DNA of 64,000 nt from Ilumatobacter fluminis (GTDB taxonomy: Bacteria > Actinomycetota > Acidimicrobiia > Acidimicrobiales > Ilumatobacteraceae): positions 1,922,001 through 1,986,000 of the forward strand of contig NZ_SOAU01000001.1 in assembly GCF_004364865.1 (NCBI RefSeq). The letters run 5' to 3'. The translations under genes and the position numbers were made by a program. How positions within the stretch are numbered: the first letter of the stretch is position 1; the number at the start of each line of letters is the position of its first letter. Of this stretch, positions 1,261 through 17,662 are shown piece by piece. The notes under the pieces are model-generated. The model saw only the letters and a program-made list of their open reading frames with translations, was not told the DNA's origin and searched no databases.

Positions 1261-2877
1261 ATGTCCACATCCGACACCCCACCCGTGCTCGGGGATGACC
1301 TCGCCCAACAGCCGAGCGGCGAGGAGATCACCACCGACGAGAAGCAGCTCCGCAACATCCTGATCGCGATGTGCACGGCGCTGATCGCCGTCATCGCCTC
1401 GGTCTCGGGCCTCAACGTCGCCCAGCAGGACCTGGCGGTCGACCTCGGCGCGTCCCAGAGCGAGATCCTCTGGATCATCAACGCCTACACGGTGGCGCTC
1501 GCCGCCCTCCTCATGCCGATCGGTGCGATCGGCGACCGCTGGGGTCGCAAGCCGATCCTGATGATCGGCCTCGTCGTGTTCGGCCTGGCGAGCCTCGGTG
1601 CCGCCGTCGCGACCACGACCGCCTTCATGATCGTCGCCCGCGTCGTCGCCGGTGTCGGTGCGGCCATGATCATGCCGGTCACCCTCTCGGTGATCACCTC
1701 CAGCTTCCCGCCCGAGGCCCGTACCCGGGCGATCGGCATCTGGGCCGGCTTCGCCGGTGCCGGCGGCATCATCGGCCTGTTCGTGTCGGCATTCATGGTC
1801 GACATGGTGAGCTGGCGTTGGCTGTTCGCCCTGCCGGTCGCACTCGTCGTGCTCGCCGGTGCGATGGCGTGGCGTTCGGTGCCCAACTCGCGGGAGCACA
1901 GCGAGCACCCGTTCGACACGGTCGGTTCGGTCCTGTCGGCGCTCGCCATCGGCGGCCTCGTCCTCGGTATCCACGAAGGACCCGAGCAGGGGTGGACGCA
2001 CTGGATCACCCTGACGGGCATCGTCGTCGGCGTGATCGCCGCCGTCGCCTTCGTGCTCTGGGAGCTGCGCCGCCACGACCCGCTCCTCGACGTGACCACG
2101 TTCAAGAACCGTGGCCTGGCGTCCGGTTCGCTCACCCTCCTCATCGTGTTCGCCGTCATGTTCGGCATCTTCCTGGTGCTGTTCCCGTACTTCCAGGCCG
2201 TGATCGGCTGGTCGGCGCTGCGCTCGGCCGTGGCACTGCTCCCGATGGCGTTCGTGATGATGCCGATGTCGGCCGTCGCCCCGTTCGTCGCCGAGCGGAT
2301 CGGCAGCCGCACGACGATGCTGTCGGGCGTGGCGATCTTCGCCACCGGCCTGGCGACGCTGGCGCTGAGGGCGTCGGTCGAGGGCGGCTACATGTCGGTC
2401 CTGCCCGGCCTCGTCATCATCGGCCTCGGCATGGGTCTCACCATGACCCCCGCCACTGCGGCGATCACGGAGACGCTCCCTGCCGACAAGCAGGGTGTCG
2501 CCTCGGCACTCAACGACACCTCTCGCGAGGTCGGCGGTGCCCTCGGTGTCGCCCTGCTCGGTTCGGTGCTGAGCGCCGGCTACGAGTCGGCCATCGAGCC
2601 CGACCTCGCCGGACTGCCCGAAGAACTCGCCGAACCGGCTCGTGAGGGCATCGGCGGAGCGCTCGCCGTCGCCGGCCAGGCCGGCGAGCAGGGTCCGCAG
2701 CTCGTCTCGGCCGCCCAGCACGCCTTCGTCGACGGTTGGGTGCAGTCGATGTGGATCGGCGTCGCCCTCGCCGGCGTCACCTTTGCCTACCTGCTGTTCT
2801 TTGGACCGAAGAAGCGCAACGAGACCGGCGACGTGCCCACCGCACAGGCCGAACTCGAACTCGCCCTCGAGGGCTGA
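1261..2877 (+). CDS. MFS multidrug exporter, DHA2 (14-TM) type
   Basis: This 538-residue membrane protein of the major facilitator superfamily matches the length of the 14-helix DHA2 (QacA/EmrB-like) drug:H+ antiporters. A short hydrophilic N-terminus is followed by repeated hydrophobic segments. The family motif A appears as GAIGDRWGRKP between helices 2 and 3, and motif C-like Gly/Pro residues occur in helix 5 (GFAGAGGIIGLF). The end is charged and cytoplasmic. It is divergent from a TetR gene with a good operator between them, so induction by an exported compound is likely. The substrate is not predictable. Confidence 0.9.
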   Translation: MSTSDTPPVLGDDLAQQPSGEEITTDEKQLRNILIAMCTALIAVIASVSGLNVAQQDLAVDLGASQSEILWIINAYTVALAALLMPIGAIGDRWGRKPILMIGLVVFGLASLGAAVATTTAFMIVARVVAGVGAAMIMPVTLSVITSSFPPEARTRAIGIWAGFAGAGGIIGLFVSAFMVDMVSWRWLFALPVALVVLAGAMAWRSVPNSREHSEHPFDTVGSVLSALAIGGLVLGIHEGPEQGWTHWITLTGIVVGVIAAVAFVLWELRRHDPLLDVTTFKNRGLASGSLTLLIVFAVMFGIFLVLFPYFQAVIGWSALRSAVALLPMAFVMMPMSAVAPFVAERIGSRTTMLSGVAIFATGLATLALRASVEGGYMSVLPGLVIIGLGMGLTMTPATAAITETLPADKQGVASALNDTSREVGGALGVALLGSVLSAGYESAIEPDLAGLPEELAEPAREGIGGALAVAGQAGEQGPQLVSAAQHAFVDGWVQSMWIGVALAGVTFAYLLFFGPKKRNETGDVPTAQAELELALEG

Positions 2878-2898
2878 TCGTCACCCGTGGGCTGACGG

Positions 2899-4113
2899 TC
2901 ACAGGTCATCGGTGTTCGCCAGGCCGGACAGAACCGGCTTGGCGAACACGATGGCGGCACCGAGCGTGATGCCGCCACCGAGCAGGAACGGCGCCTGCAG
3001 GTCGATGGCGTAGGCGACGAAGCCACCGGCCACGATGCCGAGCGCGCTGGCCGCAGCGCCGAACCAGCGGTAGGCGCCGTTCACCCGGCCGAACTGATCG
3101 GTCGGGATCAGGCGCTGCCGCACCGTGATGGTCGCCACGTTCCAGACCGTGATGCCGAACCCCATCACGAAGCCCGCCGTGGCGACCACGGCGACCGGTG
3201 GTGTCAGGCCGATGACGATCTGGGCGACACCGAACGCCAGGTAGGGCGCCACCACCGAATTCTTGAGCCCGATCGCACCGACGATGCGTGGCCCGAGCAG
3301 GCCGCCCGTCGCCGCTCCCATGGCCGTGATCGCGAGCAGGAGCCCGAACCCGAAGCTGTCGAGGCCGAGTTCGTCGACGGCGAACTTGGCGAAGATGCCC
3401 TGACCGAGCATCAAGCCGAGGTTCGTAACCGTGAACATGATGGCCAGCGTGCGGAGCAGCTGGTGACGGCCGAGCCATCGGATGGCCGAACGCAAACTGC
3501 GATCCTCGATCGGCACCATGGTGACCGGTGGCGCCTTGCGGATGCGGATGGTCAGCAGCAGCGCCGCCGCCACGGCGAAGCTCGCCGCATTGGCAGCGAA
3601 GGGCAGGCCGACGTCGATGTCGAAGAAGAAGGCACCCACGGCCAGGCCGGCGATCGAACCGGCGACGATCTCGGCGGCGAACAGCAACCCGTTCGCCCGG
3701 GCCAACTGGTCCTGCTCGACGAGCATCGGCACGAACGCCTGGGCCGTGCTGTCGAACAGCACCTCGCACGAACCGATCACGACGAGCAGCGCGACCAGCC
3801 ACCAGATCGAGATGCCACCCTGGATCGCCCAGGCGGCGATGATCGAGTAGAGGCCGACGCGAGCCAGGTTCGCCGACACCATGAGCAGTCGCCGGTCGAC
3901 CCGGTCGACCACGACACCGACGGGCAGCGAGATCACCAGCCACGGCACGAACGTCGCCACCGTCGTGAGCGCGAGCAGTCGTTCGTCGTCGGTCAGCGAG
4001 AGCGCGAGCAACGGCATGGCGACGAAGTTGATGCCGTCGCCGAGGTTGCTGATCAGGCTCGCCCACCACTGGCGCCAGTACGCCGTGGGCAACGGCTCGC
4101 GCGCGGTACTCAC
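2899..4113 (-). CDS. MFS transporter, EntS-like (MFS_3)
   Basis: This 404-residue, roughly 12-helix transporter begins with YWRQWWASLISNLGDGI, typical of the MFS_3 group that includes the enterobactin exporter EntS and macrolide pumps. The loop 2-3 motif is GVVVDRVDRRLLM, in place of the classical GxLaDrxGrkr. It starts with GTG. It ends 21 bases from the convergent DHA2 exporter stop and lies 54 bases downstream of menE on the same strand, so co-transcription with the amidase-menE pair is possible. The exported substrate is unknown. Confidence 0.85.
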   Translation of the reverse strand: MSTAREPLPTAYWRQWWASLISNLGDGINFVAMPLLALSLTDDERLLALTTVATFVPWLVISLPVGVVVDRVDRRLLMVSANLARVGLYSIIAAWAIQGGISIWWLVALLVVIGSCEVLFDSTAQAFVPMLVEQDQLARANGLLFAAEIVAGSIAGLAVGAFFFDIDVGLPFAANAASFAVAAALLLTIRIRKAPPVTMVPIEDRSLRSAIRWLGRHQLLRTLAIMFTVTNLGLMLGQGIFAKFAVDELGLDSFGFGLLLAITAMGAATGGLLGPRIVGAIGLKNSVVAPYLAFGVAQIVIGLTPPVAVVATAGFVMGFGITVWNVATITVRQRLIPTDQFGRVNGAYRWFGAAASALGIVAGGFVAYAIDLQAPFLLGGGITLGAAIVFAKPVLSGLANTDDL

Positions 4114-4167
4114 GCAGCCGTCACCACGGGGCGCTCGTCGTTCCCTGCCCGAGCCATCGGGGCGAAC

Positions 4168-5277
4168 CTAGCCGTCGCGTTCGACCAGATCGGCTCGTTT
4201 CAGCTTGCCCAACGTGGTGCGTGGCAGCTGTGAGGCGATCACCACGTTGCGTGGCGCGCAGTAGGCCGGCAGCTCGGCACGGACCGCCTCGCGCAGCTCG
4301 TCGAGCGACGGTGCGTCGCCGTCGGCCGGGACGACGAAGGCGGTGACGACGTGGCCCCACTCGGGGTCGGGGACGCCTGCGACGCCGACGTCGGCGACCT
4401 TCGGGTGGCGGGCGAGGACGCGCTCGACCGGGTCGGGCCAGACGTTCTCGCCGCCGGTGATGATCAGATCGCCACGGCGACCGTGCACGATCAGCTGTCC
4501 GTCGACCGTGAGCTCGCCGAGGTCGCCCGTCGGGAACCAGCCGCCGGCGACGAACGGATCGGTGCCGTCGCGGTAGCACCGCAAGAGCATCGGGGCGCGC
4601 AGCTGGATCTCGCCGTCGATGATGCGCACCTCGACCCGGTCGAGCGGCACACCGTCGTAGACGACGCCGCTGCCGGTCTCGGTCATGCCGTACGTGGTGA
4701 CCGAGTTGGCCGGCCGGTCGGCGGGGGCGTGGGCGCCGCCGAGGACGATCACGCGCCAGCGGTCGGTGTCGACCCGTCGCATGGCGGTCGCCACCAGGGA
4801 GACGAGCGTGGCGTCGCTCGAGTCGACGGTCTCGACGTCGAAGGCGGGGATCACGGTCAGCCGGGTGCCGGTGTGGAGGGCCCGGGTCACGACCGAGAGT
4901 CCGCCGACGTGGGCCAAAGGCAGACAGGCCAGCCAGTGGTCGTGTTCCGGATCGACGCCGAGTCGCGTCGACGTCGCCTCGGCGGAGGCGGCCACGGCCT
5001 CGTGGGTGAGGACGACCCCCTTGGGCGTGCCGGTCGATCCGCTGGTCGCCACGACGAGCGCGTCGCCGTCGTCGACCGGCCGGCCTTCGGCCAGCTCCGA
5101 GGTGCCGCCGGGCTCGACCACGGTGCTGGCTCCCATGGCGGCCATCAGCGCCGCCTTGGCAACCGGCGGGAACCGCTGGTCGACCGGCAAGACGGCGTCC
5201 CCCGAATCCCAGGCGCGCTGGAGTGCGTGCACGAACGCCGGACCGCCCGGCAGGTCGAGCGCGACGAGGCGCCGCAC
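4168..5277 (-). CDS. menE: o-Succinylbenzoate-CoA ligase (MenE-like)
   Basis: This is an acyl-adenylate-forming enzyme. The ATP phosphate-binding loop is VATSGSTGTPKG, the second core motif is TTYGMTETGSG, and the hinge region is FPTGDLGEL followed by HGRRGDLIITGGENVWP. The catalytic Lys is in PRTTLGKLKRADL near the C-terminus. It has 369 residues, much shorter than typical acyl-CoA ligases and close to the compact actinobacterial MenE proteins. menA, menD, menF and menG in the same window support activation of o-succinylbenzoate to its CoA ester for menaquinone synthesis. The GTG start at 5277 lies 2 bases after the stop of the amidase gene, so they are probably co-transcribed. Confidence 0.85.
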   Translation of the reverse strand: MRRLVALDLPGGPAFVHALQRAWDSGDAVLPVDQRFPPVAKAALMAAMGASTVVEPGGTSELAEGRPVDDGDALVVATSGSTGTPKGVVLTHEAVAASAEATSTRLGVDPEHDHWLACLPLAHVGGLSVVTRALHTGTRLTVIPAFDVETVDSSDATLVSLVATAMRRVDTDRWRVIVLGGAHAPADRPANSVTTYGMTETGSGVVYDGVPLDRVEVRIIDGEIQLRAPMLLRCYRDGTDPFVAGGWFPTGDLGELTVDGQLIVHGRRGDLIITGGENVWPDPVERVLARHPKVADVGVAGVPDPEWGHVVTAFVVPADGDAPSLDELREAVRAELPAYCAPRNVVIASQLPRTTLGKLKRADLVERDG

Positions 5278-5279
5278 CG

Positions 5280-6680
5280 TCAGGCCGTCACCGGATCGAT
5301 CGGTGCCGGGGCGCCTGCGGCGGCCTGGATCTGAGCGGCGACGTCGAGACAGCGGAGGTCGGTGAACCGGTCACCCATGACCTGCACGCCGACCGGCAAC
5401 CCGTCGGCCGTGCCGCACGGCACGATCGCACCCGGGAGGGCGAGGAAGTTGGCCGGCAGCACGGGACGCAAGGTGTCGCGGATGAGTTGTTCGTTGTCGC
5501 CGATGTCGGCGTCGTGCTCGAACGGCGGCATGCCCCACGTGGGCGACAGCAGGATCGGGTGCTGCGCGAAGAACTCCGACCACTCCCGCATCAGGCGGAA
5601 GCGGGTGCCCTGCACGTGGGCGGAGAGCTCGACCGAGGTCTCGGGTGCCACCTCGGCGAACCCGTCGAGGATCTTGCGTGCGTCCTCGCCGAGGATCTCG
5701 TCGAGGAGCGGCCGTGTGACCGACAGGTCGGAGAGCAGGAGCGCCGCCCACATCTCGATCGCCACCTCGTAGTCGGGCGGTGTCGCCTCGACCACGTCGT
5801 GGCCGGCATCGGCCAGGATGTCGGCCGCAGCACGGACCGCCGCCGCGATCTCCGGGTGGGTGTCGCCGCCGGGCGGGTCGGCCAGGACGGCGATGGTGAG
5901 GCGCTCACCGTCGGCGAGTTCGGTGAACGTCGCCGGGACCGATCGCGGGTCGCGCGGGCTCGGCCCGGCGATCGCCTCGAACGCGGCCCGCACATCGGCG
6001 ACGCGTCGGGCCATCGGGCCCTCGACCAGCATCTGCTGCGAGCTCAAGAGCTGGTCCTGCGGCGGGATGACCGTCGCCATCGGCACGGCGCCGACCGTGG
6101 GCTTGATCGATGCGATGCCGCAGCAGTGCGCCGGGTTGCGGAGCGAGCCGCCGATGTCGTTGCCGAGTCCGAGCGGGCTCATGCCGGAGGCGATCGCCGA
6201 CGCCTCGCCACCGCTCGAGCCGCCCGCGGTGCGGCCGGGGTGGTGCGGGTTGCGGGTGAGGCCGTGCAACGTGGAGTGGGTGTGGACGCGGAGCCCGAGA
6301 TCGGGCAGGTTGGTTCGTGCGAACGGGATCGCACCGGCGGCCCGCATGCGGGCGACGGTCGGGGCGTCGATCGGCGCGACCGCCTCGGCCAGGGCGGGGA
6401 GCCCCTGGGTCGTCGGCGTGCCGGCACAGTCGATGTTCTCCTTCACCGTGATCGGCACGCCGTGGAAGGGGCCGAGCTCGTCACCACGGCCGACGGCGGC
6501 GTCGGCCGCATCGGCGGCGGCCAGCGCCTCGTCGTCGAGGCGGCGGACGATCGCGTTCAGGTCGCCGTTGACGGCGTCGACGCGGGCCAGGTGGGCCTCG
6601 ACGACGGCCCGGCTCGTGGTCTCGCCCGACCGGATCTTCTCGGCCAGTTCGAGGGCGCCGAGTTGCCAGAGTTCGCTCAT
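5280..6680 (-). CDS. Amidase signature family amidase
   Basis: This 466-residue amidase-signature hydrolase has the Ser-cisSer-Lys triad. Lys80 sits in PITVKENID, the Gly/Ser-rich stretch AGGSSGGEA covers 152-160 with the cis-Ser, and the nucleophile is Ser179 in DIGGSLRNPA. The family hydrolyses amides and includes GatA; no GatB or GatC lies nearby, so a stand-alone catabolic amidase or aryl/acyl-amidase is likelier. The ATG at 6680 was chosen because upstream in-frame codons encode only an Arg-rich shadow of the opposite strand. It is divergent from menA with just 20 bases between the two starts. Substrate unknown. Confidence 0.88.
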   Translation of the reverse strand: MSELWQLGALELAEKIRSGETTSRAVVEAHLARVDAVNGDLNAIVRRLDDEALAAADAADAAVGRGDELGPFHGVPITVKENIDCAGTPTTQGLPALAEAVAPIDAPTVARMRAAGAIPFARTNLPDLGLRVHTHSTLHGLTRNPHHPGRTAGGSSGGEASAIASGMSPLGLGNDIGGSLRNPAHCCGIASIKPTVGAVPMATVIPPQDQLLSSQQMLVEGPMARRVADVRAAFEAIAGPSPRDPRSVPATFTELADGERLTIAVLADPPGGDTHPEIAAAVRAAADILADAGHDVVEATPPDYEVAIEMWAALLLSDLSVTRPLLDEILGEDARKILDGFAEVAPETSVELSAHVQGTRFRLMREWSEFFAQHPILLSPTWGMPPFEHDADIGDNEQLIRDTLRPVLPANFLALPGAIVPCGTADGLPVGVQVMGDRFTDLRCLDVAAQIQAAAGAPAPIDPVTA

Positions 6681-6700
6681 GCATCCATCATGACCGACGC

Positions 6701-7609
6701 ATGTCGACCGCCGAGAACACGCCCGCCCCGACCCTGTCCGACTGGGTCGCCGGTGCCCGCCCGCGCACCCTGCCCGCCGCCGTCGTTCCCGTCGCCGTCG
6801 GCGCCGGCGTCGCCGCCGGTCTCGGCGAGTCGTTCGGTGACGGCGTCGTGTGGTGGCGCGTGGTCGCGGCGCTCGTCGTGTCGCTCCTGCTCCAGATCGG
6901 CGTGAACTACGCCAACGACTACAGCGACGGGGTGCGCGGCACCGACGACGTGCGGGTCGGCCCGATGCGGCTGGTCGCAACCGGGACGGCGTCGCCGTCG
7001 GCGGTGAAGAAGGCGGCCCTGCTGTCGTTCGGACTGGCAGCGGTCGCCGGACTGGCGCTCGCCATCGCCACGTCGTGGTGGCTCGTGCTCGTCGGCGTCG
7101 CGGCGATCCTCGCCGCGTGGGGATACACGGGCGGCCCGAAGCCCTACGGCTATCTCGGGCTGGGCGAGGTCTTCGTGTTCGTGTTCTTCGGGTTGGTCGC
7201 CACGGCGGGCACCACCTACGTGGCGATCGAGGAGGTGCCGTGGGTGACGTGGCCTGCGTCGACCGGCGTCGGCTTGATCGCCTGCGCCCTGCTGGTCGTC
7301 AACAACCTGCGCGACATCCCGACCGACACCGACGCCGGCAAGCGGACGCTGGCCGTTCGGCTGGGCGACCAGCGGACCCGCTGGTTCTACGTGTTGTTGA
7401 TCGCGCTCACGTTCGCGTGCGTCGTCGTCAGCGCCATCGACCGTCCGTGGGCGCTGCTCGGCCTGCTCGGCATCCCGGCGTCGATCGGCCCCGTCAAGCA
7501 GGTGCTCGGCGGAGCGACCGGCCCGCAGCTGATCCCGGTGCTCGGCGGGACCGGCCAGACCCAGCTGGTCTTCGGCCTCACCTTCGCCTTCGGCCTCGCC
7601 CTCGGCTGA
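6701..7609 (+). CDS. menA: 1,4-Dihydroxy-2-naphthoate polyprenyltransferase MenA
   Basis: This integral membrane UbiA-family prenyltransferase attaches the polyprenyl chain to 1,4-dihydroxy-2-naphthoate, giving demethylmenaquinone. The first Asp-rich motif is NDYSD at about 72-76 within NYANDYSDGVRGTDD, which binds the prenyl diphosphate through Mg2+. The second is DIPTDTDAGKRTLAVRLG at about 205-222. The 302-residue length and about eight hydrophobic segments match MenA. The ATG at 6701 leaves only 20 bases to the divergent amidase start, so its promoter must overlap the other gene or the transcript is nearly leaderless. Confidence 0.93.
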   Translation: MSTAENTPAPTLSDWVAGARPRTLPAAVVPVAVGAGVAAGLGESFGDGVVWWRVVAALVVSLLLQIGVNYANDYSDGVRGTDDVRVGPMRLVATGTASPSAVKKAALLSFGLAAVAGLALAIATSWWLVLVGVAAILAAWGYTGGPKPYGYLGLGEVFVFVFFGLVATAGTTYVAIEEVPWVTWPASTGVGLIACALLVVNNLRDIPTDTDAGKRTLAVRLGDQRTRWFYVLLIALTFACVVVSAIDRPWALLGLLGIPASIGPVKQVLGGATGPQLIPVLGGTGQTQLVFGLTFAFGLALG

Positions 7610-7640
7610 CCACACGCTCCCGACGTGCGATGATCGGCGG

Positions 7641-7970
7641 ATGCCGATCGCCAACTGTTTCGTGCGGAGCGACATCGGCCCGATCGACGTCGACCGAGTG
7701 GTCGAGGTGTGGTCGGTGGTGTCCGGCGTCGCCGACGAGGAGATGACGGTCAACGTCGTGCGCGGTGAACAGGGCGGCAAGCGTTACGCGGCGACGGCGT
7801 CGCTGACGCTGCCGTCGCTCTGGAGCGGCGACGACGTCGAACGCCTGGCGACGGGTCTCTCACAGGCCTTGGCGGATGCGACCGGCGCCGCCGCCGACTC
7901 GATCCTCGTGATCACCACACTGATCCCGTCCGGCTCCGTCGTCGAAGCCGGCCACCTCGTCCACTGGTGA
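7641..7970 (+). CDS. Small conserved protein, possible tautomerase-superfamily member
   Basis: This is a 109-residue soluble protein. It begins MPIANCFV, so Met removal would expose Pro1, the catalytic residue of the 4-oxalocrotonate tautomerase superfamily. A hydrophobic beta-strand and a helix with LATGLSQALADATGAAADSI follow, where the family has its helix and the second strand ILVITTLIP. The assignment to tautomerases rests on this pattern only. The gene follows menA by 31 bases on the same strand. It ends 11 bases before the palindrome at 7982, which may act as its terminator. Confidence 0.55.
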   Translation: MPIANCFVRSDIGPIDVDRVVEVWSVVSGVADEEMTVNVVRGEQGGKRYAATASLTLPSLWSGDDVERLATGLSQALADATGAAADSILVITTLIPSGSVVEAGHLVHW

Positions 7971-7981
7971 CGTTAGGACGC

Positions 7982-8031
7982 ATGGGGTCGGATACGTCTC
8001 GTCGGGACCGACGAGACGTATCCGACCCCAT
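7982..8031. repeat. 50-bp perfect palindrome, copy 1
   Basis: Two 24-base arms (7982-8005 and 8008-8031) are exact reverse complements around the dinucleotide GA. The outer part reads ATGGGGTCGGATACGT inwards. It sits between two convergent genes (7641-7970 + and 8074-8793 -), a natural place for a bidirectional terminator, but it has no T-run. A second copy is at 10704-10753. The two differ by one paired (compensatory) base change and by the centre, so the symmetry itself appears to be maintained. Confidence 0.9.
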
Positions 8032-8073
8032 CCGTCGCTTCACCAGTCGGCGCCGGGACGGGCCCGTTCGGCG

Positions 8074-8793
8074 TTACGGGAGCCAGGTGGCGATGGTGTC
8101 GGCGACCGCCCCGGGGTGTTCGGAGTGGGCGGCGTGGCCGGCGCCGTCGATGGAGACGAACGTGGCGTTCGGGAGCGCCTCGGTCATCCGGAGGCCGATG
8201 ACGGTGAACTTGGTGTCGAGCGCGCCGGCGATCACGAGGACCGGCACGGTGATGCGTTCGAGCTCGCCCCACCGCGAGCGCTGGACACCGGTGCCTGCGG
8301 TTCGCAGGCTGTGGGCGAGTCCCGCCGCGGTGTTGCGTCGACGGTGGAGCAACCCGTCCGGGTCGGGCGGCAGGGTCGCGAACAGGGGAGCGGCGAGCCA
8401 CTCGTCGAGGAACGCATCGACGCCGACCCGCTCGATGTGGTCGGCGCGTTCGTCGTCGAGACGTCGGCGCTCTTCCCGCTCCGCCTCGTCGGCGATCCCC
8501 GGCGTCGCCCCGATCAGCACGAGGCGCTCGACCGGCGAACCGTCGAGCAGCGCAGTGTGGAGCGCGATGCGGCCACCCATCGAATAGCCGACGTAAGTGG
8601 CGGGTCCGATCGACGTCGCGAGCGCCGCTGCCGTCCGATCGATGTCGCGCTCGTCGGCCGCGCTCAGGCCGTGACCGGGCAGGTCCGGGAGGACCAGGGT
8701 GCTGTCACCGACCCGTTCGGCGACGGCGTGGGCGACGTGGTGCCAGTGGTGATGGGTCTGGGTGAAACCGTGCAGGAAGGCGATGCGCCGCAT
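8074..8793 (-). CDS. menH: Alpha/beta hydrolase, MenH-like (SHCHC synthase candidate)
   Basis: This 239-residue alpha/beta hydrolase starts FLHGFTQTHHHWHHV. The nucleophile elbow is GYSMGGR (Ser71), the acid is in the AGALDTKF strand, and the catalytic His is in GAGHAAHSEHP. Its short length, the PDLPGHG oxyanion region and the GYSMGGR elbow match MenH, which eliminates pyruvate from SEPHCHC to give SHCHC. menD just upstream on the other strand supports this role. Other small hydrolases share the fold, so the function is probable rather than certain. Its ATG overlaps the stop of the DsbA-family gene by one base (TGATG), suggesting translational coupling. Confidence 0.72.
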   Translation of the reverse strand: MRRIAFLHGFTQTHHHWHHVAHAVAERVGDSTLVLPDLPGHGLSAADERDIDRTAAALATSIGPATYVGYSMGGRIALHTALLDGSPVERLVLIGATPGIADEAEREERRRLDDERADHIERVGVDAFLDEWLAAPLFATLPPDPDGLLHRRRNTAAGLAHSLRTAGTGVQRSRWGELERITVPVLVIAGALDTKFTVIGLRMTEALPNATFVSIDGAGHAAHSEHPGAVADTIATWLP

Positions 8794-9554
8794 CACTCGG
8801 TGGCGCAGGCGTCGCCCTCGCACGAGTCGCCTGCGTCGACCGAGGCCTCGGCTGCGGCTTCGGCCTGCTCGGCGACACGCATCTTGTCGGCGAGGCGACG
8901 GAACACGTTGACGAAGGTGTCGGTGTCCTGAGCACCGGGGATCGCCCACTGGCCCTCGATCACGAAGGTGGGCACCGCGGAGATGCCGTGGTCGGCCGCC
9001 TGCGACAGGTCGTCGCCGACCGCACCGACACCGGCATCGCTCGACAGGAACCCCAGGATCTCGTCGCGTTCGGCGCCGAGTTCGGCGGCGCAATCGGCGA
9101 GGGTTTCGGGCAGGCCGATGTCGAGCCCGTCGACGAAGTAGGCCTGCAGCAGCCGCTCCTTCATCGCCTCTTGGGTGACGGGTGTGGCCGGCTGGTCGGC
9201 CCACCAGAGCAGGCGGTGGGCGAGCAGCGTGTTGGCGCGCAGCGCCCGGTCCATGTGGAACTCGAGGCCTTCGCCGGCGGCGGTGTCGGTGACGCGGTCG
9301 ATCAACATCTGGGCCTGCTCGGGGCCGCCGAACTTGCGGGCATACGCGTCGAACACCGGACCCGACTTGCCGGGCGACGCCGTCGGGTCGAGCTGGTACG
9401 GGCGGAAGTGGACCTCGAGATCGAGTTCGCCCTCGAGCTCGGCGGCCGCCTTCTCGAACCGGCGCTTGCCGATGTAGCACCACGGACACACCACGTCCGA
9501 CCAGATGTCGACTCGCAGTTTCGGAACGGTCGTCGCCTCGTCGTGAACGGTCAT
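8793..9554 (-). CDS. DsbA family oxidoreductase (FrnE-like)
   Basis: This cytoplasmic thioredoxin-fold protein has 253 residues. The active site C-P-W-C is at 23-26 in DVVCPWCYIGKRRFE, followed by the alpha-helical insert of the DsbA family and the cis-Pro region SAVPTFVIEGQWAIPGAQ. This is the layout of FrnE/HCCA-isomerase-like proteins, which act as disulfide isomerases or oxidoreductases. No signal peptide is seen. An extra CxxxxC pair lies near the C-terminus (SCEGDACATE), similar to the second cysteine pair of FrnE. It starts two bases from the divergent glycosyltransferase frame and overlaps the menH-like gene by one base. Confidence 0.88.
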   Translation of the reverse strand: MTVHDEATTVPKLRVDIWSDVVCPWCYIGKRRFEKAAAELEGELDLEVHFRPYQLDPTASPGKSGPVFDAYARKFGGPEQAQMLIDRVTDTAAGEGLEFHMDRALRANTLLAHRLLWWADQPATPVTQEAMKERLLQAYFVDGLDIGLPETLADCAAELGAERDEILGFLSSDAGVGAVGDDLSQAADHGISAVPTFVIEGQWAIPGAQDTDTFVNVFRRLADKMRVAEQAEAAAEASVDAGDSCEGDACATE

Positions 9555-9591
9555 GGGTCGAGCCTACGGGGCGGCGGCTACCGTCGCCGTC

Positions 9592-10686
9592 GTGGAGCCG
9601 AAGCGACGTGTGGCACTCGTCGAGCCGTACCTCGGTGGGTCGCACCGTGCCTGGGCCGAGGGATACGCCGAACGGTCGGCGCACGACGTCGAGGTGTTCG
9701 GGCTGCCGGCCATCCACTGGAAGTGGCGGATGCAGGGCGGGCACGTCACGCTGGCGCCACGCCTCGCAGAGGCCGCAGCGGTGCAGCCGTTCGACGCCGT
9801 CCTCACGACGAGCATGTGCAACGTGCCGGCACTGCTCGGGTTGTGTCGCCGGTCGCTCGGAGGCGTACCCGTCACGCTGTACATGCACGAGAACCAGCTG
9901 ACGTTCCCGCTGTCGGAACACGACCGGGTCGACCTGACGTACCCGATGATCAACTGGACGTCGATGGTCGCAGCCGACCGGGTCGTCTTCAACTCGGCGT
10001 ATCACCGCGACGAGTGGTTCGAGGCACTGCCGGGGTTGCTGGCGCGGTTCCCCGACGAGAAGCACGGGCGCTTCGTCGAGTCGGTGCGAGCCAGGTCGAC
10101 CGTGCTGCCGGTCGGGGCCGACCTCGCAGCGCTCGACGCCGTGCCCCGGGCGCGACGTGAGCGACCGCTGGTGCTGTGGAACCAGCGGTGGGAGTACGAC
10201 AAGGGACCCGAGGAGTTCGCCTCCGCGATCACGACCCTGGCCGACGAGGGCGTCGAGTTCGACGTGGCGTTGGCGGGGGAGCGGTTCGTCGACGAGCCGC
10301 CGTCGTTCGAGGCGCTGCGGGCGCGGCTGGGCGATCGTGTGGTGTACGCCGGCTGGGCCGAACTCGACGAGTATCGGCGCCTGTTGCGCAGCGCCGACGT
10401 GGTCGTGAGCACGGCGCACCATGAGTTCTACGGCATCGCCGTGGTGGAGGCCATCGCCGCCGGTGCGTGCCCGGTCGTGCCGAACCGGCTGGTGTACCCG
10501 GAACGCGTCCCACCCGAGTGGCACGACCGCTGCCTGTACGACGACGCGTCCGGGTTGGTCGAGCGCATCCGCTGGGCCGTGACGAACCGCGACGAGTCCG
10601 CCGCCGTCGCCACGGCGCTGCGCCCCTCCCTCGCCGACCACGACTGGTCCGCCGTCACCCCGTCCCTCGACACCCTGCTCCTGTGA
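9592..10686 (+). CDS. Glycosyltransferase, DUF3524/GTDC1 family (tRNA-queuosine mannosyltransferase-like)
   Basis: The N-terminus, RRVALVEPYLGGSHRAWAEGY, is the signature of the DUF3524 domain found in animal GTDC1, recently identified as the enzyme that mannosylates queuosine in tRNA-Asp. HWKWRMQGG and the MHENQLTFP / NSAYHRDEWFE blocks are also characteristic. The C-terminal GT-B half carries LWNQRWEYDKGPEEF and STAHHEFYGIAVVEAIAAG, the nucleotide-sugar E-x7-E type site. The GTG at 9592 gives 364 residues; an ATG at 9553 would overlap the divergent dsbA-like start. Acting on queuosine tRNA is inference from the family. No queuosine synthesis gene is in this window. Confidence 0.8.
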   Translation: MEPKRRVALVEPYLGGSHRAWAEGYAERSAHDVEVFGLPAIHWKWRMQGGHVTLAPRLAEAAAVQPFDAVLTTSMCNVPALLGLCRRSLGGVPVTLYMHENQLTFPLSEHDRVDLTYPMINWTSMVAADRVVFNSAYHRDEWFEALPGLLARFPDEKHGRFVESVRARSTVLPVGADLAALDAVPRARRERPLVLWNQRWEYDKGPEEFASAITTLADEGVEFDVALAGERFVDEPPSFEALRARLGDRVVYAGWAELDEYRRLLRSADVVVSTAHHEFYGIAVVEAIAAGACPVVPNRLVYPERVPPEWHDRCLYDDASGLVERIRWAVTNRDESAAVATALRPSLADHDWSAVTPSLDTLLL

Positions 10687-10703
10687 CCGTCGGATGACGA
10701 GGT

Positions 10704-10753
10704 ATGGGGTCGGATACGTTTCGTCGGTACCGACGAAACGTATCCGACCCCAT
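10704..10753. repeat. 50-bp perfect palindrome, copy 2
   Basis: Arms 10704-10727 and 10730-10753 are exact reverse complements around TA. The element equals the copy at 7982 except for one base pair in the stem (C:G there, T:A here, changed on both arms) and the central dinucleotide. It lies between the stop of the GTDC1-like gene and the start of menD, both on the + strand. It could therefore be a terminator, an attenuator-like element of menD, or a dispersed repeat. An open frame reads through it into menD, but the repeat is not part of MenD. Confidence 0.9.
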
Positions 10754-10774
10754 CTGCGCCGTATCGTGCTCGGC

Positions 10775-12397
10775 GTGATCGGGGATGCGAACGCCACCTG
10801 TTGTGCGACGTTGGTCGACGAGTGGATCCGGTGCGGGGTGCGGCACGCCGTCGTCGCCCCGGGGTCGAGGTCGACGCCGCTCGCGATCGCCCTGGCCGAA
10901 CGCGACGAGCTGCAGGTGCATGTCGTGCACGACGAGCGGGTCGCCGCCTTCGTGGCACTCGGGCTCGGGCTCGACGGGATCCCGGCCGTCCTGACGTGCA
11001 CCAGTGGGACGGCCACCGTGAACTTCCACCCGGCGGTCGTCGAGGCCGGACTGTCGAACGTGCCGATGATCGTCGCAACCGCCGACCGCCCGCCCGAGCT
11101 GCGGGGTGTCGGCGCACCGCAGACGATCGATCAGCTCGAGCTGTACGGCCGATCGGTGCGCTGGTTCCACGACGCTCCGGTACCCGACGAGGCCGACCCG
11201 GCCGGCTGGCGACCCCTCGCCCAGCGCGTCTTCTCGACCGCCGACGCAGGGCCGGTGCATCTCAACCTGCCGTTCCGTGAACCGTTGCTCGGCACGGTCG
11301 GCGAACTGCCCGAGCCGATCGGGCCGCCACTGCCCGTGCCGCGTGGCATGGCCGCGAGCGGTCCGGCGACCGAGTACGACCGGCAGCGCGGCGTGATCGT
11401 CGCCGGTGGACGCAGCGGGGTCGACCCCGACGACGTCGTCGCCCTGGCCGAACGGTTGGGCTGGCCGATCCTCGCCGATCCGTGTTCGGGGCTGCGCGGC
11501 GCCGCCAATGCGGTCGACGCATTCGAGTCGATGCTGCGGTACCGCGAGTTCGCCGACGCGCACGCACCCGAGGTGGTCGTCCGTGTCGGACGGGCACCCG
11601 CGTCGAAGACGCTGTCGCAGTGGATCGCCCGCAGCGATGCACCGGTGCTGCAGGTCGGTGGCCCGGGTGTGGTCGATCCCGACCGCAACGTGGCCGCCTT
11701 CTGTTCGCTCGACGACCTGCAGGCGCTCGCCGGGGCCGGCAACACCCCGTGGATGGCGCGGTGGCGGCACGCCGCCGATCGAGCCGAGGCCGCGATCGCC
11801 GCAGCCCTCGAGACCGAGCTCTCCGAACCGTCCGTCGCCCGCGCCACGGTGGTGGCGAGTTCGTCGGTCGACGGCGAGCTGGTCGTGTCGTCGTCGATGC
11901 CGATCCGCGACGTCGAGTGGTTCGGTGGAGTGACCGCACGGGTGCACGCCAACCGTGGCGCGAACGGGATCGACGGGGTGATGTCGACGGCGGTCGGTCG
12001 GGCGCTGCTCGGTGGGCCGGTGTTCGTCCTGATCGGCGACATCGCCTTCGCTCACGACAGCAACGCGCTGCTGGCACTCCGCCACCGTCGTGCCGATGTC
12101 AGGGTCGTCGTGATCGACAACGCCGGCGGCGGCATCTTCAACTTCCTCCCGCAGGCGACGGCCCTGTCGACCGAGCGGTTCGAGCAGCTGTTCGGCACCC
12201 CGCACGACACCGACCTCGTCGCGCTCGCGTCGGCCCACGGCCTCGACGCGACGACGGTCGACTCGCTCGAGCAGCTCCGCGAGCGTCTCGCCGTGTCCGG
12301 TCCGACGGTGACGCGGGTGGTCTCCGACCGTGTGGAGAACGTCGCCTTGCACGACGAGCTCCATGCGGCGGTCGCCGCCGCGCTGTCGACGCGCTGA
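10775..12397 (+). CDS. menD: SEPHCHC synthase MenD
   Basis: This thiamine-diphosphate enzyme joins isochorismate and 2-oxoglutarate to give 2-succinyl-5-enolpyruvyl-6-hydroxy-3-cyclohexene-1-carboxylate. The N-terminal Pyr domain begins CATLVDEWIRCGVRHAVVAPGSRSTPLAIAL, the MenD hallmark. The PP domain has the ThDP motif IGDIAFAHDSNALL through VVVIDNAGGGIFNFLP. The GTG at 10775 (or 10766) gives about 540 residues, the normal size; starting at 10694 would add residues encoded by the palindrome. Its stop overlaps the next gene's ATG by one base (TGATG). Confidence 0.95.
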   Translation: MIGDANATCCATLVDEWIRCGVRHAVVAPGSRSTPLAIALAERDELQVHVVHDERVAAFVALGLGLDGIPAVLTCTSGTATVNFHPAVVEAGLSNVPMIVATADRPPELRGVGAPQTIDQLELYGRSVRWFHDAPVPDEADPAGWRPLAQRVFSTADAGPVHLNLPFREPLLGTVGELPEPIGPPLPVPRGMAASGPATEYDRQRGVIVAGGRSGVDPDDVVALAERLGWPILADPCSGLRGAANAVDAFESMLRYREFADAHAPEVVVRVGRAPASKTLSQWIARSDAPVLQVGGPGVVDPDRNVAAFCSLDDLQALAGAGNTPWMARWRHAADRAEAAIAAALETELSEPSVARATVVASSSVDGELVVSSSMPIRDVEWFGGVTARVHANRGANGIDGVMSTAVGRALLGGPVFVLIGDIAFAHDSNALLALRHRRADVRVVVIDNAGGGIFNFLPQATALSTERFEQLFGTPHDTDLVALASAHGLDATTVDSLEQLRERLAVSGPTVTRVVSDRVENVALHDELHAAVAAALSTR

Positions 12398-12921
12398 TGG
12401 CGTCGGGCGAAGTCGGTGACGGCTTGGATTGGATGTCGGATCGCCAGCGTGACGGCGGCGTCGACTCCATCTCGTTGCCGGCACGGGTGCCGGGCACGCT
12501 CGAGCTGTGCGGCAAGCACGCGGTGGTCACCCGCTACGCGTCGGATCGTTGGGACGCCGTGGTGTGCCTGGTCGAGCGACACGAACTCGACGGCCGCTAC
12601 GGCGACTATCTCGCGTGGCTCGACTCGTCGCCGCCGGGCGCGACCTGGCTGCCGATCCACGATCTGCATGTCCCGACGACCGACGCGATGCGTGAGCTGG
12701 TCGAGTCGATCGTGTCGCGGCTGATGGCGGGGGAGCGGGTGCTCGTCCACTGCGCAGCGGGAATGGGGCGAGCCGGGACGACAGCCGCGTGCGTGCTGGT
12801 GCGGCTCGGCTCGACGGTCGACGACGCACTCGCCACGGTCACCCGCTGTCGACCCGGGGCCGGACCCGAGGCGGGTGTCCAGCTCGACCTGGTTCGGGAG
12901 TTCGCCGCCGGTCTGCGATGA
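12397..12921 (+). CDS. Dual-specificity/tyrosine phosphatase family protein
   Basis: This 174-residue protein has the Cys-phosphatase loop H-C-x5-R as HCAAGMGRAGT (His118, Cys119, Arg125) and an upstream general-acid candidate Asp in WLPIHDLHVPTTD. The layout resembles the CDKN3/DSP-like atypical phosphatases seen in bacteria. It is cytoplasmic, without a signal peptide. It is coupled to its neighbours: it overlaps menD by one base and the PLP-dehydratase gene by four (ATGA). A link to menaquinone synthesis is not evident. The substrate may be phosphotyrosine, phosphoserine or a small phosphate ester. Confidence 0.8.
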   Translation: MASGEVGDGLDWMSDRQRDGGVDSISLPARVPGTLELCGKHAVVTRYASDRWDAVVCLVERHELDGRYGDYLAWLDSSPPGATWLPIHDLHVPTTDAMRELVESIVSRLMAGERVLVHCAAGMGRAGTTAACVLVRLGSTVDDALATVTRCRPGAGPEAGVQLDLVREFAAGLR

Positions 12922-13847
12922 TCGCCGACGTGAGCGAGATGGTGACACCCGACGACATCGAACGAGCCGCCGAGCGGATCGGCGACCGTGCCCGTCGCAC
13001 ACCGGTCATCGCCCACGGCCAGCTCACGCTGAAGCTCGAACTGATGCAGCACGCCGGGTCGTTCAAGACGCGCGGCGCCTTCAACCGGGTGTTGGGCGAG
13101 GCCGACCTCCCCGACGCCGGCCTGATCGCAGCGAGCGGTGGCAACCACGGCGCGGCCCTCTCGTACGTCGGCGGCTCGCTCGGGGTGCCGACGGAGATCT
13201 TCATGCCGTCGACCTCGCCCGACATCAAGCGTCAGAACATCGAGCGGTTCGGTGCCACGGTGCACGTGATCGAGGGGTACTACGACGACGCCCAGGCCGC
13301 CGCCGACGAGCGGCGTGCGGAGACGGGTGCGATCCAGATCCACCCGTACGACCACCACGACACGGTCGCCGGTCAGGGCACGATGGCGCGAGAGCTGGAG
13401 GAACAGGTCGACGGCGTCGACACGATCATCGTGGCTGCAGGTGGTGGGGGCTTCATCGCCGGCCAGGCCGCTTGGTTCCGAGATCGGGTTCGGGTCGTCT
13501 GCGTCGAACCCGAGTCGAGCCAGTGCGTGCGCGCAGCGCTGGCGAACGGCAAGCCCGTGCCGGTGCCGGTCAGCGGCGTCGCCGCCGACTCGCTCGGAGC
13601 GAAGCAGGTCGGTGCGGCGCCGTGGCTGGTGATCCGCCAGTTCGTCGACGAGGCGGTCGTGGTGGCCGACGCATCCATTCGTGACGCGCAGCGAGAGCTC
13701 TGGAACGAGTGCCGCCTGATCGTCGAGCCGGGTGGGGCAGCGGCGCTGTCCGCGGTCCGGTCGGGTGCCTACGTACCGAGCCCGGGGGAGCGGGTGGTCG
13801 TCGTGGTCTGTGGGAGCAACGCCGACCCGGCGACCATCGTCGACTGA
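12918..13847 (+). CDS. Threonine/serine dehydratase-like PLP enzyme
   Basis: This fold-type II PLP enzyme has 309 residues. The Schiff-base Lys is Lys50 in HAGSFKTRGAFN, the substrate loop is ASGGNHGAAL, and the phosphate-binding glycine loop is AAGGGGFIAG. The C-terminal CGSNADP is close to the Ser/Cys-Gly site contacting the pyridine nitrogen. It lacks the regulatory ACT-like domain of biosynthetic IlvA, so it resembles catabolic threonine dehydratase, serine dehydratase or serine racemase. Its ATG overlaps the phosphatase stop as ATGA. It ends 6 bases from a convergent gene. The exact amino acid substrate is open. Confidence 0.87.
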   Translation: MIADVSEMVTPDDIERAAERIGDRARRTPVIAHGQLTLKLELMQHAGSFKTRGAFNRVLGEADLPDAGLIAASGGNHGAALSYVGGSLGVPTEIFMPSTSPDIKRQNIERFGATVHVIEGYYDDAQAAADERRAETGAIQIHPYDHHDTVAGQGTMARELEEQVDGVDTIIVAAGGGGFIAGQAAWFRDRVRVVCVEPESSQCVRAALANGKPVPVPVSGVAADSLGAKQVGAAPWLVIRQFVDEAVVVADASIRDAQRELWNECRLIVEPGGAAALSAVRSGAYVPSPGERVVVVVCGSNADPATIVD

Positions 13848-13853
13848 TCGCGC

Positions 13854-14354
13854 TCAGTCGCCGCCGGCGTGGCGCGTCGAGTACTCGACCGACTCGCGGA
13901 GGAACGCCGAGATCAGATCGTCGACCGTCTGCGTTGCCGACAGTTCGTGTACCGACGGCACGTCCTGCTCGGTCGTCTCGTCGGTTGCCGAGCCGGGCGC
14001 AGCGAGCTTCGCCGCCAGTTCGTCGAGGCTGTCGGCGAGCACATAGGCGGCAGCACCACTGCGCAGGATGCGCTTGACGGGCCCCGAGAGTTCGATGTCG
14101 AACTCCCAGTCGTCCAGCTCGACGACGACGACCCGCGCCCCGTCGTACTTCTCGCCGAGTGCGGCGATGAGTTGCGGGCTGCACGCCGGCGTCAGGACGA
14201 GGTCGGCGTGATCGCACGGCGCTCGCACGTCGAGCACCCGGGCGTCGAGGAGTTCGGCGAGTCGCTCTCGGGCCGGTCGCTTCAACGGCAGCGCCGTGAC
14301 GATCGTGCGCCGTTCGACGACCTCGTCGGCCGTCTCGACCCGCTCCATCTCCAT
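13854..14354 (-). CDS. Hypothetical protein
   Basis: I do not recognise this 166-residue protein. It is soluble and acidic, with no membrane segment or signal peptide. The first 100 residues alternate beta-like and helical stretches (RTIVTALPLKRP, ADLVLTPACSPQLI, ARVVVVELDDWEF), suggesting a small alpha/beta domain. A linker rich in Thr, Glu and Asp follows, and then a helical C-terminus (TVDDLISAFLRESVEYSTRH). ATG codons at 14354 and 14348 are both usable. The gene is convergent with the dehydratase (6 bases apart) and divergent from the HNH gene at 14504. Confidence 0.6.
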   Translation of the reverse strand: MEMERVETADEVVERRTIVTALPLKRPARERLAELLDARVLDVRAPCDHADLVLTPACSPQLIAALGEKYDGARVVVVELDDWEFDIELSGPVKRILRSGAAAYVLADSLDELAAKLAAPGSATDETTEQDVPSVHELSATQTVDDLISAFLRESVEYSTRHAGGD

Positions 14355-14468
14355 CGTCGGATCCTAGAACGGCACCGACGCTGCTGGGGCGCGTGGCCGC
14401 ATCGATCGACTACCACGTCCTGTCGTTGCGTCAGCACGAACATTACTGCGATATATGCTGCTCAGCGG

Positions 14469-14497
14469 TTGCTCACAAAACGCATGTTCGGTACCAT
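14469..14497 (+). promoter_or_regulatory. Sigma-70-like promoter for the DUF222/HNH gene
   Basis: TTGCTC (14469-14474), a 17-base spacer and TACCAT (14492-14497) form a reasonable housekeeping promoter in a patch that is visibly richer in A and T than its surroundings. The expected transcription start falls at or next to the ATG at 14504, so the mRNA would be leaderless. Confidence 0.55.
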
Positions 14498-14503
14498 TGG
14501 GTC

Positions 14504-15904
14504 ATGTTCGCCGAGCTCATCGAGAACAACCTCGCGTTGTCCGATGCCGAGCTCGATGCCGCTATCCGAGCCAACGAACTCGAACAGCGGCGACTCGCCG
14601 CCGAACACGCCGCACTGCTGTCGGTGTCCTCGGCGCGCGGCGCCTACCGGCTCGACGGGCAACGCACAGTGATCTCGTATCTGCGAGCGACGGAGAACCT
14701 GTCGAAAGGCGCAGCGTCGCAACGCCGCCGGGTGGCCGAGGTGTGTGATCTTGTACCGGCGCTCGGTGATGCGTTGCTCGCCGGTCGGGTCGGTGTCGAC
14801 CAGATCGTCGAGATCGCCCGGATCCATGCCAACCCGCGAACTCGTGACCACTTCGTCAAGGTCGCACCGATCTATCTCGAGTTCGCCGAGCATGACTCGC
14901 ATCTCGAACTGAAAGGCCGGATCGACGATTTCGTGCAGCTCGCCGACCAAGACGGTGCGTTCGCCGACCTGGTTTGTGACATCAACGAACGCGTCGCTCA
15001 CGTCCATGTGGTCGGTGGCACCCTCGACGTGAGGGTGCGTGGTGGTGACCCGTTGGTGGCCGATGAGTTCGTGGCGATCTTCGAACTGTTCGTCGACGAA
15101 GAGTTCCGTGCCGATGTCGACGCTCGTCGTGCCGAACACGGTGATCGTGCCGACGAGTTCCCGTTGCCGCGCACCGATCGGCAGCGTCGCTATGACGCGA
15201 TGATCGCGATGGCCCGCCACGCTCGCGCTCATCTCGCCGAGGGGAAACCAGCCGGGGCTGCGGAGGTCGTGACGAACATCGTCGCTGATCTCTCGACGTG
15301 GGGTGAAACGCTCGAACAGGCCGGGATGATCGCGACCGGTGACGGACAGGTCGTCGAACTCGACGACGACACCATCGACGACATCATCGACACGGTTGCT
15401 GCCGATCCCGAAGCGTGGATCGATCGGCAATGCCACACCGCCGACGGCACCCCACTGCACCCGATCACGGTGCTGCAAGCATCGTTGACGGGGCTGGTGC
15501 GTCGGGTCGTGGTCGACTCGGCCGGTGTCGTCATCGATCGGGGTCGGGCGGCCCGCTTGTTCGAAGGCGAAGCCCGAGCCGCCGCCAGGTTGTTGTATCG
15601 GGAGTGTTCACACCCCGGATGTTCGGTCAAGGTGCAGGCCTGTGACGTCGACCACGTCATCGAATGGTGGGCCGGAGGTCGCACCAACCAGAACAACGCC
15701 GACATCCGATGTAACACCCACAACCGGGACAAACACCGTGAACGATGGTCGAGCCGACGCGACGAACACGGCCGACAATTCACCATCCGACCCGACGGCA
15801 GCATCATGCTCCCCGTCGGCGCACGCCCACCCGACCTCACCCAAGACGAACTCGCCCACATCATCCGCCTCCGCCTCTACAACCAACTCGACCGAGCCAG
15901 CTGA
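14504..15904 (+). CDS. HNH endonuclease, DUF222 (13E12-repeat family)
   Basis: This is a 466-residue protein. The helical DUF222 domain fills roughly the first 320 residues (VISYLRATENLSKGAASQRR, LLAGRVGVDQIVEIARIH). The HNH nuclease module at about 369-413 has Cys-x4-Cys in ECSHPGCSVKV, the DH pair in CDVDHVIEW, Asn in NQNNADI and the last CxxHN as RCNTHNRDKHR. This is the abundant actinobacterial 13E12/REP13E12-type family, associated with mobile DNA. Its biological role is not established. Codon use has more A/T than neighbouring genes. A candidate leaderless promoter lies directly upstream and a long hairpin directly downstream, consistent with an acquired unit. Confidence 0.9.
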   Translation: MFAELIENNLALSDAELDAAIRANELEQRRLAAEHAALLSVSSARGAYRLDGQRTVISYLRATENLSKGAASQRRRVAEVCDLVPALGDALLAGRVGVDQIVEIARIHANPRTRDHFVKVAPIYLEFAEHDSHLELKGRIDDFVQLADQDGAFADLVCDINERVAHVHVVGGTLDVRVRGGDPLVADEFVAIFELFVDEEFRADVDARRAEHGDRADEFPLPRTDRQRRYDAMIAMARHARAHLAEGKPAGAAEVVTNIVADLSTWGETLEQAGMIATGDGQVVELDDDTIDDIIDTVAADPEAWIDRQCHTADGTPLHPITVLQASLTGLVRRVVVDSAGVVIDRGRAARLFEGEARAAARLLYRECSHPGCSVKVQACDVDHVIEWWAGGRTNQNNADIRCNTHNRDKHRERWSSRRDEHGRQFTIRPDGSIMLPVGARPPDLTQDELAHIIRLRLYNQLDRAS

Positions 15905-15993
15905 CCAGCGGTCGAGCCGACGGCAGAGTGCCGCAATCGGCGATGTTCGGGGTATCCGATCCGACGCATCGGGGCCGCCCGATGCTGCTCGTC

Positions 15994-16035: not shown

Positions 16036-16135
16036 AACGTGAACCGGAGAGTGCCCCTGAACTCCGGGGCGATGGCCGGCGTTATGGGCGCTCAGCCAGC
16101 GCGCAGTCTGCCGGATCCCGGACTGGTCTGGACGC

Positions 16136-17651: not shown

Positions 17652-17662
17652 GGCGACATCCT

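Follow-up and report, generated by a model that had tools for sequence, protein, structure and literature searches.

A probable family of REPIN-like palindromes in Ilumatobacter fluminis and relatives, and the different palindrome families found at the same gene ends

Repetitive extragenic palindrome (REP) doublets forming hairpins, or REPINs, are described as inverted doublets with conserved ends, in which the spacer is kept for length and pairing, and compensatory changes in their hairpins are described as common (Bertels and Rainey 2011, PMC3116915). For the phyla named in another survey, REPs with GTAG or CGTC tags are reported mostly behind the ends of open reading frames (ORFs), less than 20 bp from the 3' ends of convergent genes. 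The same survey describes TIRYTs, which are Y1 transposase genes flanked by palindromic terminal inverted repeats (TIRs) unrelated to GTAG, some of them with the motif GGGGWSAS; these repeats are moderately abundant and often dimers (Di Nocera et al. 2013, PMC3733652). As far as the papers cited here describe them, REPIN-like elements occur mostly in Proteobacteria and in some other phyla. A REP count is given for Acidimicrobium ferrooxidans (PMC12306157). The present work concerns a 64,000-nt stretch of Ilumatobacter fluminis DNA (the window; bases 1922001-1986000 of a 4,775,416-base contig) and two 50-bp palindromes within it, at 7982-8031 and 10704-10753. Both are probably copies of a non-autonomous, REPIN-like mobile repeat, here named family D. 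The genome that contains the window is designated G000, other G numbers are genomes of relatives and L numbers are stretches of DNA.

The two palindromes lie exactly where the original prediction, made from the window sequence, had placed them. Perfect 24-bp arms with a loop of 0-10 nt are expected about 7e-8 times in 64 kb of random DNA of the same composition. Copy 2 (10704-10753) is built of 25 + 25 nt arms with a 100% match, and it has consensus arms and the spacer GTAC. Copy 1 (7982-8031) has the spacer GGAC and a C variant at arm position 15 on both arms; together with a remnant of an outer half-stem, its stem reaches out to 7977-8036, with 29-nt arms that match at 97% and 2 nt between them. 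Both belong to the short class described below. They differ, as had been claimed, by a symmetric C:G/T:A stem pair and by the centre (GA versus TA), and the absence of a T-run at either palindrome was also noted correctly. The predicted RNA hairpins of the window copies are very stable on either strand (-45.9 to -55.6 kcal/mol, z -9.3 to -9.9). The extended copy 1 folds at -53.0 (+) and -55.6 (-) kcal/mol (z -9.6 and -9.9) and copy 2 at -45.9 kcal/mol over 10699-10758, and one long-class copy folds at -51.4 kcal/mol (z -6.8). Searches of the palindromes against Rfam gave only sub-threshold matches, to microRNA hairpins and one long non-coding RNA, which are taken as a generic effect of long hairpins. 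The window by itself was uninformative on copy number, with 6 arm-word matches (up to 2 mismatches) versus 4.3 expected.

Searching the whole genome revealed many further copies at unrelated places, so the pair is neither unique nor the product of one local duplication. The arm word TGGGGTCGGATACG, at up to 2 mismatches, occurs 70 times forward and 63 times reverse in G000, versus 1 and 7 times for the reversed word used as a control. Family D arms read GGGGTCGGATACGTTTCGTCG and form inverted pairs with a spacer of 4 or 25-30 nt in G000. Copies in this genome were taken from 43 stretches round the listed matches, a set complete at up to 1 mismatch in which diverged copies are undercounted. Among the matches listed, to which all G000 copy counts given here and below refer, G000 holds at least 42 dispersed D copies, namely 37 inverted pairs and 5 single units; the spacer is 4 nt long in 23 pairs, while in the other 14 it measures 25-30 nt. 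In G112, 41 loci contain 40 pairs and 8 singles, with a spacer of 4-5 nt in 39 pairs and of 28 nt in one. Inverted doublets that form one hairpin are thus the usual state (37/42 copies in G000, 40/48 in G112), and the folds agree. Short spacers are mostly GTCC or GGAC, which are reverse complements of each other, so that D has a centre with an orientation. The 14 long-class spacers of G000 are mostly dissimilar, whereas their arms are near-identical. The core of a pair measures 46 bp in the short class, or 67-72 bp with a free spacer in the long class. The D unit itself is CGACGAA-N-GGGGTCGGATACG-T-TTCGTCG, with its outer half only partly retained; covariation between outer and inner half-stems within D units was not seen (4.00 versus 4.05 shuffled; 3.34 versus 3.36). 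Between called genes lie 39 of the 42 G000 copies, and 3 lie inside them. Of the 'dispersed REP/MITE-like family' originally proposed (MITE, miniature inverted-repeat transposable element), the REP part is right in kind, the members being REPIN-like inverted doublets.

Family D is restricted to a few relatives. In a sample of 200 genomes of the same taxonomic family, evenly drawn from a larger group and searched at up to 2 mismatches in the arm, five had arm matches: G000 and G112 had many, G123 had one copy, and two had a weak single match. An exact scan of GTDB r220 contigs, in which the source genome's records may have been excluded, found only two metagenome-assembled genomes (MAGs), Ilumatobacter sp. 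HKST-UBA13 (JAGQSS01) and one other. No D was found in IMG/VR viral contigs.

D is one of several such families. A 464-kb sample of G000, comprising the window and 20 stretches of 20 kb that, the window itself excepted, were chosen regardless of D, contains 44 strong palindromes, all of which were kept in the count; 42 are intergenic, and 34 of these belong to 8 recurrent families. The names A, B, C, D, D2, F, G and H are our own, and words were counted over 10 genomes of the genus. Family A (GATGTCWGACATC) has 99 sites, in G000 only. Family B (GGGGTCTGACCTCA) has 62 in G000, 64 in G067 and none in the other 8 genomes, while family C (GGGGTCAGGCACCTTCTG, up to 1 mismatch) has 141 in G000, 149 in G112, 45 in G067 and none in the other 7. 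Family D2 (TGGTGTCGGATCC), the sister family of D in the congener G067, has 82 sites there, 5 in G000 and 0 or 1 in each of the other 8. Its unit consensus is GGCACGGAT-GGTGTCGGATCC-CTTCCGTGC, and its stem differs from that of D at complementary positions; within D2 units such covariation was seen, the half-stems pairing at 5.42 of 7 positions versus 5.11 when shuffled (sd 0.05). An A-type element lies within a D copy in G000 (L061 1902-2027) and a C element within a D copy in G112 (L132 ~296-409), and these nested cases show REPINs entering REPINs.

Different families occupy the same places in different species. Thirteen D2 sites of G067 were mapped in G000, where they hold D or a D variant (7), C (2), a C fragment (1), G (1), a D2 fragment (1) or nothing (1); another family, or a fragment of one, is thus present at 11 of the 13. 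Six D2 sites were mapped in G112, where D is found at 3, H at 1, C at 1 and nothing at 1. Ten of these slots were aligned with MAFFT, some centres being misaligned. Each alignable intergenic interval of at least 8 nt was also scored for a strong palindrome. Between G067 and G000, 13 intervals were occupied in both, 2 in G067 only, 2 in G000 only and 16 in neither (p = 1.6e-5), and in 12 of these 13 shared slots the family differs between the two genomes, with one the same. When this comparison was restricted to G000 DNA chosen regardless of D, the counts were 4, 0, 0 and 6 (p = 0.005). Between G067 and G112 there were 6 shared, 2 and 2 one-sided and 9 empty intervals (p = 0.02). Between G112 and G000 there were 7 shared, 2 and 0 one-sided and 14 empty (p = 1.5e-4); the restricted counts of 2, 1, 0 and 6 were not significant (p = 0.08). 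The other stretches were chosen round D or D2 copies, which raises overall occupancy but not by itself co-placement in the same interval. Counting palindromes of any family, 13 in G112 were listed with a counterpart interval in G000, of which two (L138) are probably repeat-driven and were set apart. Of the remaining 11 intervals, 6 hold the same family, including one remnant and one interrupted copy, while 4 have another family and 1 has nothing; one further D-for-C replacement was aligned by hand.

The spacers bear on what is exchanged at these slots. In a small test, no spacer homology was found in any of three long-long D2/D slot pairs (scores 8, 10 and 9, versus 8-16 for non-orthologous spacers on the same strand), whereas the spacers of the D/D pair L144/L049 do show homology, so that the whole element, arms and spacer, seems to be replaced rather than the arms alone. 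Such slot-keeping turnover could proceed by re-insertion into existing hairpins, by recombination, or by selection for some hairpin. A broader reading can be put forward only tentatively: three Ilumatobacter-type species would inherit REPIN slots behind stop codons, each filled by the species' own families (D, D2, C, G, H) with arms and spacer replaced together. Either REPINs already in place would serve as landing pads or a hairpin would be required at the gene end, so that the families would compete for a fixed set of slots and be exchanged chromosome-wide in a coordinated way, even without a cognate transposase.

Where D itself has stayed in place, its arms are well conserved. Among five orthologous copies that are intact in both G000 and G112, 3 of 210 arm sites are different, versus 15.9% of 3,737 aligned bases in the flanks (P = 2e-12), and two of the three arm differences make up one symmetric change. 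The comparison leaves out the non-intact orthologues: L118, of which G000 keeps a remnant, L145, whose G000 counterpart is interrupted, and L108, cut by the end of a contig. Of the 21 sites in the L108 arm that can be read, 4 differ, and including them gives 7/231. The G000 remnant (L041 ~2058-2075) is a D copy cut to 18 bp, and its G112 orthologue (L118 5245) is whole. Arms are well preserved in intact copies, yet copies do decay.

Family D copies lie mostly behind stop codons. Genes were called with our own simple codon-usage caller, trained on 464 kb, and the calls stand without comparison with annotation. On these calls, 38 of the 42 G000 copies were classified, with 15 between convergent genes, 15 between tandem genes and 8 between divergent genes; a slightly different classification gave 15, 16 and 8, with 3 inside called genes. 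For 42 of the 48 G112 copies the numbers were 18, 20 and 4. A facing stop codon lies within 25 nt of 27/38 G000 copies and 35/42 G112 copies. The expected share is 15% for random intergenic bases and 45% for random positions in randomly drawn intervals, which is the harder comparison. In tandem gaps, D is closer to the upstream stop than to the next start in 13/15 G000 and 19/20 G112 cases. By the criterion used here, hairpins occur in 23/60 convergent, 31/178 tandem and 12/76 divergent gene gaps of at least 10 nt. The option of a bidirectional terminator, raised in the original prediction, would be compatible with this placement. T-tailed terminator-like sites in window positions 1-20000 were not above chance (3 found versus 4.6 expected), which leaves room for a role of the hairpins at 3' ends but does not thereby demonstrate one.

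The same placement is what would be seen if these were domesticated 3'-end elements, in which the hairpin behind the stop is itself needed, whether for U-tract-free termination, for protecting the 3' ends of RNA or for stalling ribosomes close to the stop, and any hairpin family is kept. This explanation is compatible with a mobile origin and has a chance somewhat short of even. It would account for the short distance to facing and upstream stops, the conservation of slots while families change, the better conservation of arms than flanks, and the lack of a T-tailed excess; ribosome stalling is reported for Escherichia coli REPs that lie within 15 nt of a stop (PMC12306157). However, the gaps between divergent genes hold 8/38 and 4/42 D copies, most gene gaps of at least 10 nt have no hairpin by the criterion used, and a similar position would result from biased insertion, or from selective loss of copies in coding and promoter DNA.

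The symmetric double change that had drawn attention to the window palindromes is real but is not the rule. Across 77 pairs in the two genomes, 9 arm changes from the consensus are symmetric and 25 asymmetric: 7 and 13 in the 37 pairs of G000, 2 and 12 in the 40 pairs of G112. Two linked copies in L034 supply 4 of the 7 symmetric changes of G000, or 4 of the 9 overall. The consensus is present on both arms in 27/36 G000 pairs (one L034 copy dropped) and 30/40 G112 pairs. In the 36 pairs of G000, mismatches between the two arms of a copy total 11, whereas shuffling the partners gives 20.1 and none of 5000 shuffles reached so low a count; in the 40 pairs of G112 the total is 11 versus 15.4 (P 0.001). 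Arm symmetry is greater than chance, though symmetric change is the rarer kind. The position at which the two window copies differ is half-changed in copy L050, and compensatory changes are, as described, common in REPIN hairpins (PMC3116915); the compensatory change is therefore less exceptional than supposed.

In G112, one copy (L144 5077-5146) connects sequences that are far apart in G000, namely the left flank of the D copy at 1365438 and, inverted, the left flank of that at 3109787 (L049, L062). This marks an inversion of 1.74 Mb between the two genomes, both of whose break points lie at D copies. The junction rests on one contig of a MAG, the G112 contig ends at the second junction, and G067 shares the G000 order at the first inversion point. 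Break points at D copies suggest that the copies recombine. Symmetry and persistence might then need no function at all: arms would be re-matched by replication template switching, as in quasi-palindrome correction, and copies homogenised by recombination, with nothing selected. The excess of symmetric changes, the half-changed copy and the inversion fit this account. It is nevertheless unlikely, for in the five intact orthologous copies the arms are much better conserved than the flanks, though broken copies exist, and the tight position at stop codons is left unexplained.

An operator-like binding site of a dimeric DNA-binding protein, to which the dyad symmetry and conserved arms might point, is very improbable, since D lies mostly behind gene ends and not ahead of promoters, several parallel families share its build, and a sequence-specific operator would not survive replacement of the occupant by a different family in the same slot. 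A classical MITE of a DDE transposon, for example of the Tn3 type, whose inverted repeats start with GGGG, is scarcely credible: D is short, dispersed and non-coding with inverted ends starting GGGG, but no direct target duplication of 2-6, 8 or 9 nt was found at five offsets tested (a weak k=2 excess, 8/39 versus 4.1, appeared in G112 only), and the D flanks tend to extend the palindrome rather than duplicate a target. The MITE part of the original proposal, in the DDE sense, is not supported for want of a target duplication; long DDE elements with D arms at their ends were not searched for.

The explanation favoured here, a REPIN-like mobile repeat, implies that D was mobilised. Its copies would move in the form of single-stranded hairpins, with cutting and joining by a Y1 HuH transposase of the REP-associated tyrosine transposase (RAYT/TnpA-REP) type. 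Once placed, a hairpin may serve as the 3'-end structure for the mRNA of one neighbouring gene or of both, ending or guarding transcripts, and arm symmetry would be kept by template-switch correction between arms together with selection for the fold. Y1 genes are present in 7 of 8 other genus genomes searched (G090 left out). Family B brackets the Y1 gene of G067 and family C brackets one of those of G112. One Y1 gene in each of G038, G054 and G101 has other palindromes on both sides, in G079 they stand on one side, and the Y1 gene of G123 is flanked by inverted GGGGTCAGGCACA repeats; the Y1 loci L147, L151 and L152 have no bracketing pair. Palindromes of D-like build go with RAYTs in this genus.

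Several results weigh against this explanation. G000 does encode one gene with a Y1 transposase match, a possibility raised by the original prediction, but this sole RAYT-like gene is flanked by family F and not by D. Its match to the NCBIfam model for REP-associated tyrosine transposases is weak, at 53 of 80 bits and below the cut-off. No D copy stands beside a Y1 transposase gene at any of 11 Y1 loci examined in the genus, and the two Y1 genes of G112, a genome only 79% complete, are not beside D. D lacks the classical GTAG foot of REPs and is one base off GGGGWSAS. A clean empty site was found in one case only (L132/L162), itself with a nested element, and neither excision nor insertion was seen. 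The cognate enzyme of D may have been lost or lie outside the sample, or D may be served in trans. Families A, B and C are likewise without their own RAYT in G000, so orphanhood is common there and says little either way. E. coli genomes with REPINs but no RAYT are described (PMC8049555), and the Actinobacteridae of one published sample carry only subclass 1.1 genes (PMC6006769).

Two further observations concern the Y1 loci. The G067 gene bracketed by family B (L153) has an in-frame TAG, though G067 holds 64 B sites. In G079, a fully perfect palindrome of 74 bp (L148 1006-1079) stands beside a RAYT gene; it resembles short-class D in build, with two units that have GGGTCAGACC cores.

In the window, the setting of both palindromes is as originally described. 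Copy 1 lies between convergent genes, 11 nt behind the stop codon of a 109-aa gene with no Pfam family (7641-7970, + strand) and facing an alpha/beta hydrolase gene (8074-8793, - strand); both genes were called by our own caller and compared with Pfam. Copy 2 lies in a 79-nt tandem gap, 17 nt behind the stop codon of a glycosyltransferase gene (9553-10686, + strand) and 12 nt ahead of the called start of a thiamine-diphosphate enzyme gene (10766-12397, + strand; own caller, Pfam), which is menD-like and which we presume to be menD. The glycosyltransferase gene encodes a tRNA-queuosine alpha-mannosyltransferase N-terminal domain, here in an actinobacterial genome and adjoining the menD-like gene. 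In other genomes of the genus, no D copy was found beside menD (n=7) or behind the hydrolase gene (n=8). Gene order is mostly different there, so this indicates no more than that the two placements are lineage-specific.

Other repeats were met in the same searches. Single near-perfect palindromes of about 41-51 bp with a GCGTGAACAAACTGCGGAA-like core and without the GGTC motif form a second dispersed type near gene ends (L168 2973, L169 7555, L165 18151, L166 1179 and L162 11781). In one slot, G000 and G067 share a repeat whose arms are GTCGATTTAATCGAC-like (L166 ~8032; L265 879).

These data describe an Acidimicrobiia genome that carries several REPIN-like families at once with one RAYT. They bear on whether REPINs are parasites, domesticated 3'-end elements, or both. 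Swapped families in orthologous slots amount to a natural experiment, in which the sequence changes while position and hairpin stay, and with the genomes of the genus one can ask directly whether it is the hairpin or the mobility that is retained. Searches by titles and the beginnings of abstracts found nothing on this for Ilumatobacter palindromes, Acidimicrobi- REPs or Actinomycetota RAYTs. For REP or REPIN turnover at orthologous places, the literature searched, which takes in few subscription papers, had no evident match.

Among known systems, the GTAG and CGTC REPs share with D the position behind ORF ends. Nevertheless, the D consensus unit has no GT[AG]G foot, and its CGTC lies within the stem rather than as an unpaired tag; with a stem of about 7 bp and a loop of about 15 nt, and no unpaired GTAG or CGTC tag, the unit is unlike theirs. 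Families C and F fit the TIRYT motif GGGGWSAS with GGGGTCAG, and families B (in G067) and C (in G112) adjoin Y1 genes. In contrast, D reads GGGGTCGG and departs from the motif by one base, and it was not found beside a transposase. The hosts here are Actinomycetota, and the string 'actinobacteri' is absent from the main text of the TIRYT paper (PMC3733652). D differs from REPINs in having no GTAG foot, in spacers mostly reduced to 4 nt, so that the pair makes one palindrome, and in that a cognate RAYT was not located. It resembles them in its two inverted conserved units, less conserved spacer, intergenic position, compensatory changes and dispersal, REPINs as a kind being linked to RAYTs in the account of PMC3116915. 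The pattern of slot turnover was not found described in the literature searched, and family D itself is probably a variant of the REPIN kind.

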